From Oscillospiraceae bacterium (lineage in GTDB: Bacteria; Bacillota; Clostridia; Oscillospirales; Oscillospiraceae): 39,181 nt of DNA. This document shows positions 2,123 to 20,428 of this stretch, one piece after another. Under the pieces are notes generated by a model. The model saw nothing but the letters and a program-made list of their open reading frames with translations, did not search any database and had not been told where the DNA came from. The translations under genes were made by a program, and so were the position numbers. The stretch covers positions 1 to 39,181 of the forward strand of contig SVLH01000017.1 in the NCBI GenBank assembly GCA_015068025.1, in the 5' to 3' direction. The first letter of the stretch is position 1. Each line of letters starts with the position of its first letter.

Positions 2123-2150
2123 AAAAAAAATACCGGCACCAACGGCCGGT
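2123..2150 (-). terminator. Attenuator terminator in the uracil permease leader
   Basis: Minus strand ACCGGC, a 7-base loop, GCCGGT, then A and eight T residues: a compact intrinsic terminator. It sits between the permease promoter and its start codon. Its first stem base is the last base of the leader peptide stop codon. Confidence 0.85.
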
Positions 2151-2233
2151 CAAACAAGGGAAACGGAAATAAAAGAACCAAAAACAGAAACAGAGGCTCC
2201 CATAGCAGACATCCGACTCGTCAAATGCAGCAT
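2150..2233 (-). CDS. 27-residue leader peptide of the uracil permease
   Basis: A short open frame (MLHLTSRMSAMG..., ending FISVSLV) with a near-ideal AAGGAGG site 7 bases before its ATG, about 25 bases after the predicted transcription start. Its last 16 codons (2150-2197) are very U-rich: 28 of 48 bases are U, with runs of up to five. The stop codon touches the attenuator stem. This is the layout of the E. coli pyrBI leader, where UTP shortage slows RNA polymerase in a U-rich stretch and lets the ribosome catch up and melt the terminator. The peptide itself need have no function. Homology to pyrL is not claimed; only the layout is similar. Confidence 0.7.
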   Translation of the reverse strand: MLHLTSRMSAMGASVSVFGSFISVSLV

Positions 2234-2263
2234 ATTTCGTCCTCCTTCCTTTATTTCTCGGTT

Positions 2264-2292
2264 ATTATACAGAAGCTTTTCCCGCATTGCAA
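2264..2292 (-). promoter_or_regulatory. Promoter of the uracil permease leader
   Basis: Minus strand -35 TTGCAA (2287-2292), 17-base spacer, perfect -10 TATAAT (2264-2269). The start site would be near 2257. Confidence 0.85.
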
Positions 2293-2367: not shown

Positions 2368-2796
2368 CTTTAGCAGCGATTTTATTTGTGACTCACCGTA
2401 AATGGGGATCCCGCGAGCCTGCAGCAGCCGTGCCGTCACGCCGTCCCCTTCGGTCAGGGTTCCGGTATGCGTGCCGTCATAGATCTCCCCACAGCCGCAG
2501 GAGGGACTTCGCTCCTTCAGCACCGCGGCCTCGCAGCCAAACAGTTCACACAGGCGCAGCGTTTCCTCCGCCCCCCGGCGATACTGAATCGTTACGTCCG
2601 TGCCGTCCCTTGTCAGCACCTGCTCCCCCAGCCGCTCCGCGGGCGGTCTGGGCGTGGGAAGGCCGCCCAGCTGCTCGGGGCAGACCGGGATCAGGGTGTG
2701 ATACTCTGCCAGCGCGACGGCATCGGCACAAGGCTTGGAAGCGCCGTCATAGCGGCAGCAAGTGCCCAGCAGACAGGCCGAGATCAGGATCTTCAT
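2365..2796 (-). CDS. DUF523 family protein (YbbK-like)
   Basis: A 143-residue small cysteine-rich protein matching DUF523. It opens with the family signature ILISACLLGTCCRYDG and carries PVCPEQLGG and LKERSPSCG downstream. The conserved Cys residues suggest metal or thiol chemistry, but the family has no established function. It is the last gene of a NUDIX - DUF3783 - DUF523 group, starting 7 bases after the preceding stop. The SD is weak, so translational coupling is likely. Confidence 0.88.
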   Translation of the reverse strand: MKILISACLLGTCCRYDGASKPCADAVALAEYHTLIPVCPEQLGGLPTPRPPAERLGEQVLTRDGTDVTIQYRRGAEETLRLCELFGCEAAVLKERSPSCGCGEIYDGTHTGTLTEGDGVTARLLQARGIPIYGESQIKSLLK

Positions 2797-20225: not shown

Positions 20226-20262
20226 AGCCATCTTCACGCAAAGCGTGGTGTATCTGCAAGCG

Positions 20263-20416
20263 GATAGCGCACCTGCGGTTTCCCGCAGACAGTCCCGCAG
20301 GTATTTCCCGCGAACCCACCTCTCACCCGCGCCCGGATGAAAAGTTCGGCGGACTTGCCTCACCCATGCTCTCCACCCGCCGGCTCCCATGGGTTCATCG
20401 CATCCGCGCCTCTATC
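20263..20416 (-). ncRNA. Lysine riboswitch (L box) aptamer of the dapAB operon
   Basis: Minus strand: GATAGAGGCGCGGATG at the 5' side, a GTCCGCCGAAC core, then GGGACTGTC, a P5 hairpin (TGCGG-GAAA-CCGCA), GGTGCGCTATC closing P1 against GATAG. The order and spacing match the L box and the region ends in an intrinsic terminator. It is the second copy of this class in the window; the two share core motifs but not stem sequences. Confidence 0.9.
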
Positions 20417-20428
20417 TCATTTTTGGTT

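Follow-up and report, generated by a model that had tools for sequence, protein, structure and literature searches.

A candidate ribosome-dependent attenuator, with a leader complementary to its own U-rich tail, upstream of a probable uracil permease gene in Oscillospiraceae

Nucleotide sensing by coupled transcription attenuation is a textbook case, known from enterobacteria. The pyrBI leader (pyrL) of E. coli and Salmonella carries a short frame near the transcript start and a U-rich stretch before an intrinsic terminator, with that terminator in reach of the leader ribosome and a pyrimidine gene downstream; the locus described here has the same layout in front of a probable uracil permease gene. 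It differs from pyrBI in gene, phylum and terminator sequence, and the U fraction over the 30 nt before the stem is 0.60, as against 0.40 in E. coli pyrL. The pyrL frame runs through its terminator, whereas in 76 of the 83 loci compared here the frame stops in contact with the stem or within the hairpin, and pyrL has no excess pairing between its Shine-Dalgarno sequence (SD) and the tail of its frame (z = +0.72). The E. coli pyrE attenuator, at the end of rph, works by UTP-dependent coupling and also has a frame that ends before the terminator; its translated frame, however, is a whole gene, and in MG1655 the stem starts 34 nt after the annotated stop of the truncated rph (by script) rather than touching it. 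A hairpin that covers an SD from the very 5' end of the transcript, and answers to pyrimidine nucleotides, is known from enterobacterial pyrC, where start-site choice and the gene's own SD are involved rather than a leader SD and a terminator. Within Bacillota, the vmlR leader of B. subtilis is similar in its upstream frame, polymerase pausing and intrinsic terminator, but according to extracts from PMC9226507 it responds to an antibiotic through the leader ribosome, and it has an antiterminator, of which none was found here. A literature search (titles and abstract openings; open-licence PMC papers) found no earlier report of such a leader. Should the conserved version hold in Oscillospiraceae, the strategy would extend beyond the Gram-negatives.

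The window (the whole 39,181-nucleotide stretch that was analysed, contig SVLH01000017.1 of an Oscillospiraceae bacterium) has on its minus strand, in order, a promoter, an SD, a 27-codon frame, an intrinsic terminator and an NCS2 permease gene (Table 1). These are the parts described in an earlier note made from the sequence (a promoter, an ideal SD, a 27-codon frame with its stop on the terminator, and the permease beyond), and all of them are found at the locus. The same note gave 58% U for the last 16 leader codons; the tail is indeed U-rich, but the count is 27 of 48 (56%). The transcript start, placed by sequence 7 nt past the -10 box, is predicted near 2257, about 24 nt from the leader ATG at 2233, and an SD-bearing leader frame close to the predicted transcript start is a feature of the pyrBI/pyrE type.

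Table 1. Features of the leader locus, in positions of the window
Feature	Position	Strand	Remarks
Sigma-70-type promoter TTGCAA-17-TATAAT	2264..2292	-	matches 10/12 consensus bases
5' UTR including SD AGGAAGGAGG at 2250..2241	2234..2260	-	5' arm of predicted SD-covering hairpin
27-codon leader frame MLHLTSRMSAMGASVSVFGSFISVSLV	2150..2233	-	stop TGA 2152..2150; frame and stop position conserved
U-rich tail of leader frame	2164..2191	-	3' arm of predicted SD-covering hairpin
Intrinsic terminator hairpin ACCGGC..GCCGGT	2132..2150	-	first stem base is the A of stop TGA
Terminator T8 tract	2123..2130	-	sequence reading
NCS2-type permease, probably uracil permease, 468 aa	685..2091	-	ATG 2091; PF00860

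We read the element as a transcription attenuator that depends on a ribosome and lets polymerase through when pyrimidine nucleotides run low, and give this reading a probability of about 0.6. To judge from the sequence comparison, it probably works like pyrBI/pyrE attenuation with a lock on the SD. When UTP is ample, polymerase would cross the U-rich end of the leader fast, and the new U-rich RNA would fold onto the purine-rich 5' UTR and cover the leader SD; with the SD covered no ribosome would follow, the terminator would form and the permease would be off. When UTP is low, polymerase would slow in the U-rich stretch, a ribosome could load on the still-open SD and trail closely, and on reaching the stop codon it would cover the 5' arm of the terminator, leaving polymerase to continue into the permease gene. 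Comparison of sequences shows selection on the frame, its contact with the terminator, selection for U, SD-tail complementarity and the place before the permease; we infer that the leader is translated in the cell, that the signal is UTP and that the response runs in this direction, with the hairpin acting in its timing. In E. coli, extracts from PMC4824070 report, a stop 5 bp before a terminator cuts termination from about 90% to less than 10%, provided that the upstream frame is translated; on uncoupling, termination at such a stop-adjacent terminator returns. Because the leader stop contacts the stem, a ribosome arriving in time should block the terminator; by analogy with pyrBI, its arrival would depend on the speed of polymerase in the U-rich tail, and hence on UTP. 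It may further depend on whether the SD is by then sealed by the tail, possibly as a race of ribosome loading against completion of the U-rich arm.

For comparison, 178 5' regions of permease orthologues and more distant relatives were gathered: 58 of them are the best 30 from 150 family genomes plus 28 new ones from 86 genus genomes, and the others are at least 80 loci from named genomes (several from the same genomes) and 40 fetched regions. A hairpin with a T-run (no more than 190 nt from the gene) and a start candidate are present in 120; at 90% identity these come down to 101 distinct loci, 83 of them with a strong SD start. This leaves out 58 regions lacking that combination, 19 near-duplicates, and 18 distinct hairpin loci in which the script found no strong-SD start. 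The hairpin energy limit of -7 kcal/mol excludes L101 (-6.4) and L179 (-6.2). All counts use a strict terminator picker, since a looser one took weak in-frame hairpins or the terminators of upstream genes. Even the strict picker misassigned L082, L089, L123 and L177, whose leaders are readable by eye; at the wrongly assigned site L082, L089 and L177 have no strong SD, and they drop out of the counts.

The stop of the SD-bearing frame touches the terminator stem (-3 to +3) in 50 of the 83 distinct strong-SD loci, the window included, against 3.1 expected from dinucleotide shuffles, while the control frames +1 and +2 place a stop there in 2 and 4 loci. Elsewhere it falls inside the hairpin (26 loci), beyond it (6), or before it (1, namely L123, with its misassigned terminator). 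A frame lost from relatives that keep the terminator, which the earlier note held would count against its reading, was not seen: 82 of these 83 frames, preselected for a strong SD, are open up to the stem, where shuffles predict 46.2 without an early stop. The frame-terminator arrangement is not due to chance. Leader length ranges from 16 to 29 codons among the 50 stem-touching loci, and the peptides are dissimilar beyond close kin, so that it is the frame itself that is kept and not the peptide; the alignment of orthologues that the note had proposed finds SD, frame, U bias and stop-to-stem contact conserved. The bacteria concerned are gut relatives of Oscillibacter, and the nearest named record is a buffalo-cecum Oscillibacter MAG (L067); a leader of Pseudoflavonifractor capillosus An386a (L083) is also in the set.

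In 76 of the 83 the frame ends at the stem or within the hairpin, which by distance puts the terminator in reach of the leader ribosome; these 76 are referred to as leader-type loci. A -10 box (at least 5/6) stands 25-69 nt (median 30) upstream of the leader start in 70 of them, and a -35 box (at least 4/6) in 52. The pyrL form, reading through beyond the hairpin, is limited to six of the 83, and the window is not among them. (The partly pyrL-like frames that run past the hairpin are those of L017, L049, L062, L078, L163 and L164.) Stop-terminator contact is not by itself diagnostic, because stops are common near ordinary terminators too: of 51 such terminators in the genus stretches and named loci L067-L090, 20 have a mechanically called stop no more than 8 nt away, while in E. 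coli the figure is 1 of 18 (p = 0.007). Such frequency suggests that ribosomes do not normally trail closely and that coupling must be made locally. It also fits the classing of Bacillota as having runaway transcription, in extracts from PMC13323073, and default termination in these bacteria is plausible.

The tail of the leader is rich in U beyond what its peptide calls for. Over the 76 leader-type loci the U fraction climbs from 0.24 in the first part of the leader (measurable in 72) to 0.55 over the final 18 nt, with C at 0.20-0.28 and A at 0.09-0.10 in the last 27 nt. With amino acids held fixed and codon usage taken from roughly the first 100 permease codons, the last 12 codons contain 1271 U against 874.5 expected (z = 34.5; 896 codons, 76 leaders). 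Phe and Ser make up 20.8% and 15.4% of tail codons, and TTT is used for 73% of the Phe (26% expected) and TCT for 53% of the Ser (6% expected); an excess that is synonymous argues against selection on amino acids of the Phe/Ser type alone. On this evidence from codon choice, U in the tail is selected as a nucleotide, and it is so placed before the terminator as in pyrBI and pyrE. TTNTTT motifs, known from B. subtilis as NusG pause motifs (PMC9226507, in extract), occur in 52 of 76 tails against 46.6 +/- 3.2 in shuffled ones, which is no clear enrichment.

The earlier note does not mention that the SD-bearing 5' UTR is, by sequence comparison, complementary to the U-rich tail of its own leader; in predicted folds the leader can shut over its own SD, adjoining the terminator. 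Measured against dinucleotide shuffles, folding of the leader region has a mean z of -2.01 (76 loci), but with purines at the 5' end and pyrimidines at the 3' end this control is weak, so a swap test was used, pairing each 5' UTR with the tail of its own leader and with every other tail in the set. Pairing with the own tail is stronger by 2.86 kcal/mol (row and column corrected), or -8.2 sd of permutations that ignore shared descent (76 loci). The preference is present both in the own genus (-6.8 sd; 43 loci, including L070, placed there only from its position among the named loci) and in other genera (-4.0 sd; 33 loci), while promoter DNA and first codons as control partners give +1.7 and +1.5 sd. 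The part upstream of the SD alone yields -3.7 sd overall and -3.6 in the own genus; in other genera it yields -1.0, no own-tail preference, and the signal there is thus at the SD and spacer. Own tails form a median of 21 pairs (mean -30.2 kcal/mol), compared to 16 pairs (-25.2 kcal/mol) for shuffled tails and 17 pairs (-26.7 kcal/mol) for swapped ones; relative to shuffled versions of the own tail, z averages -1.26, with p<=0.05 in 28 of 76. The SD itself is mostly paired (0.88 with own, 0.73 with shuffled and 0.86 with swapped tails). As swapped tails cover it nearly as often, covering of the SD is general to these tails, and what the own tail gains is strength. Between the end of the hairpin's 3' arm and the terminator lie 5 nt (median). 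Because the SD pairs with the leader's own tail, part of the pyrimidine bias may serve pairing.

The minimum-energy fold of the window copy has 25 pairs, joining the 5' UTR to 2191-2164, with pairing no stronger than with shuffled tails (z = 0.00). The own-genus leaders were aligned in sets of 24 (A2) and 6 (A3), leaving out 13 of the 43, and on A2 RNAalifold, given no hint of the helix, predicts 8 of its pairs. In A3, where (as in A2) the helix scored for covariation was picked after inspecting the sequences, 93.5% of cells are paired versus 53-68% when slid, the covariation score is reached by 0 of 500 shuffles, and two-sided changes occur in 4 of 13 pairs, a number equalled or exceeded in 24 of 500 shuffles. 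Covariation in A2 is modest: its score is reached by 12 of 500 shuffles, and its count of pairs changed on both sides by 304 of 500. Neither A1 nor A2 has a long conserved motif outside the A-run of the 5' UTR, the start region and the terminator. A search of the 76 loci for a competing antiterminator found none (mean duplex z +0.28); in 9 loci, including that of the window (-10.7 versus -10.4), the duplex outweighs the terminator hairpin.

The leader keeps company with one gene. A profile of tail and terminator, made from 43 sequences whose stems are of the CCGGC type and run against 61 genus genomes, has 36 matches at E<=1e-3, every one just upstream of the permease. It matches 35 of the 36 sampled genomes with a permease gene at that limit (in the 36th, G185, the gene copy is truncated, the leader is readable and the match has E 0.012) and none of the 25 genus genomes without one. 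Since many of the matched sequences trained the profile, the informative part is that there are no other strong matches. Eight weaker ones (E 0.006-0.09) comprise the G185 leader, six copies of another conserved element, and L313, which is unrelated. A rule-based leader scanner finds the window leader only in 368,528 genus bases (both strands) and nothing in 150,000 bases of E. coli. Before pyrB and upp it finds nothing either (30 loci each, 61 genomes searched), and ten stretches around pyrB contain no leader (the start of the pyr operon was read in L265, other genes judged by eye), so this is not a general pyrimidine regulon. Among other families of Oscillospirales, relaxed limits give a leader score to 7 of the 25 loci fetched (from 26 listed), some of them weak (U 0.33-0.43); from the rest of the class, none of 33 fetched loci (from 51 listed places) scores as one, and one of the 33 is clipped by a contig end.

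The gene downstream is clearly a member of the family PF00860 (268.8 bits, cut-off 27). Its best-scoring NCBIfam equivalog is NF007995, uracil permease, at 278 bits against a cut-off of 477, and with 287.2 bits it falls just below the cut-off of 291.8 for TIGR00801 (NCS2 superfamily). The name "uracil permease" used in the earlier note is therefore secure as to permease family but not as to the uracil equivalog; uracil is probably the substrate, as the best guess from sequence. In two relatives (L334 and L360) a motif search finds the end of an Upp-like gene directly upstream of the permease orthologue. The genome has a second NCS2 gene, 60% identical to the permease, with a look-alike leader MFVFHFMHAAVSSVGQTHILF (L177) whose stop overlaps the terminator; the tail and terminator profile does not match it, and it has no excess pairing (z = +0.29). 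Just upstream of the leader, at 2368-2796 (minus strand), lies a gene of the 2-thiouracil desulfurase family (PF04463), a possible pyrimidine-related neighbour.

Other kinds of leader have to be weighed against this reading. PyrR-type attenuation is the usual solution in Firmicutes, and pyrR does lie directly upstream of the permease orthologue in some members of the family, but the chance that a PyrR-type or riboswitch attenuator operates here is next to nil. No PyrR protein above cut-off was found in 86 genus genomes (the window's own genome is 71% complete), and no PyrR RNA site (RF00515) in 37 of them under strict filters; weak matches to the PyrR model in 82 of the 86 (best 36.6 bits, cut-off 138) are judged from their scores to be other phosphoribosyltransferases. 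Against Rfam the leader matches no family at gathering score, and two sub-threshold matches (E 1.4 and 3.9) look like chance; the earlier note had recognised no PyrR anti-antiterminator, and accordingly no Rfam PyrR match appears in the window at gathering score or in 2050-2350 up to E 5. In the family as a whole, PyrR is above cut-off in 26 of 150 genomes. Its distribution over 45 family genomes with a scored permease orthologue is 0 of 21 with the leader versus 6 of 24 others (Fisher p = 0.023, shared descent ignored), and in these six leaderless genomes the coordinates put pyrR directly upstream of the permease. An equally negligible chance attaches to a Rho-dependent leader, whose pyrimidine-rich tail would be a Rho site exposed if untranslated. 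B. subtilis Rho favours pyrimidine-rich RNA (PMC13323073, in extract), yet at E<=1e-30 no Rho gene was found in 41 genus genomes, the window's own included, by a search positive in E. coli, B. subtilis and six other genomes, and an intrinsic terminator is present. The share of Phe and Ser codons in the tail would suit amino-acid attenuation, with a ribosome stalling on a scarce charged tRNA; we consider this very improbable, as the peptides differ and have no conserved run of regulatory codons, the U bias is synonymous, no alternative antiterminator was found, and in amino-acid attenuators the terminator stands over 20 bp away from the leader frame, according to extracts from PMC4824070.

The hairpin might instead be the sensor itself (of a factor, of temperature or of translation capacity), the tail being U-rich only for pairing with the purine-rich SD arm. 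Conserved complementarity and the purine-rich 5' UTR speak in favour of such a sensor. It is improbable all the same, because U is used where C would pair better (U is the partner of a 5' arm G in 258 of 666 cases, or 39%, and TCT is the preferred Ser codon), because no long conserved motif is found in A1 or A2 beyond A-run, start region and terminator, and because the strong profile matches all precede one permease. Plain pyrBI/pyrE logic deserves more weight, although it too seems unlikely: slowing of polymerase and a trailing ribosome would alone suffice, and the hairpin would merely silence terminated leader RNA. The sequence features of pyrBI are present at the leader, E. coli pyrL works without SD-tail pairing, the window copy has no excess pairing, and across the set swapped tails cover the SD about as often as own tails do. 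Over the 76 leaders, though, own-tail pairing exceeds swapped pairing in both pairs and energy. A bolder version, which we think less likely than not, is a kinetic RNA gate that senses UTP without needing general coupling and arose separately from enterobacterial pyrBI. Its tail would be both clock, through synthesis that is slowed at low UTP, and lock, once the finished tail pairs with the leader SD, so that a ribosome would enter only when polymerase is slow. It would act in a lineage in which neither Rho nor PyrR was found and in which ordinary terminators often stand against stops.

The interpretation offered in the earlier note, a putative nucleotide-sensing coupled attenuator that may have evolved independently of pyrBI, is supported in part, by the conservation of frame, SD, contact and U bias, by the failure to find PyrR or its RNA site in the genus and by the tracking of the permease; it had overlooked SD-tail pairing, and stop contact is not diagnostic alone. 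The setting adds interest to the case, a phylum classed as runaway-transcribing (PMC13323073, in extract) raising the testable question of how a leader might set up local coupling. SD-tail pairing is separable from U content, which would make the clock distinguishable from the lock.

Some other observations concern neighbouring elements. The conserved element behind six of the weaker profile matches (L307-L312) is a different, pyrimidine-rich one with an SD-like GGAGGAG, followed by CACGATTTCCTCTCTTTCTGTTTCTTTTCCCTCTTTGCAGCCGGCGG and a terminator. The scanner finds no leader frame in it, its hosts are six genus members without a close permease orthologue, and in 4 of the 6 it lies upstream of a frame containing MRGVHSAVDDIRRTVFKEVAKLA; it is possibly an undescribed regulator. 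The purine content of called ORFs was discarded as evidence, being unreliable because the longest-ORF caller picks wrong strands in GC-rich DNA. The window also contains two lysine riboswitches (RF00168) on the minus strand, at 339-510 (84.1 bits) and at 20257-20422 (86.3 bits), the latter preceding DHDPS and DapB genes.
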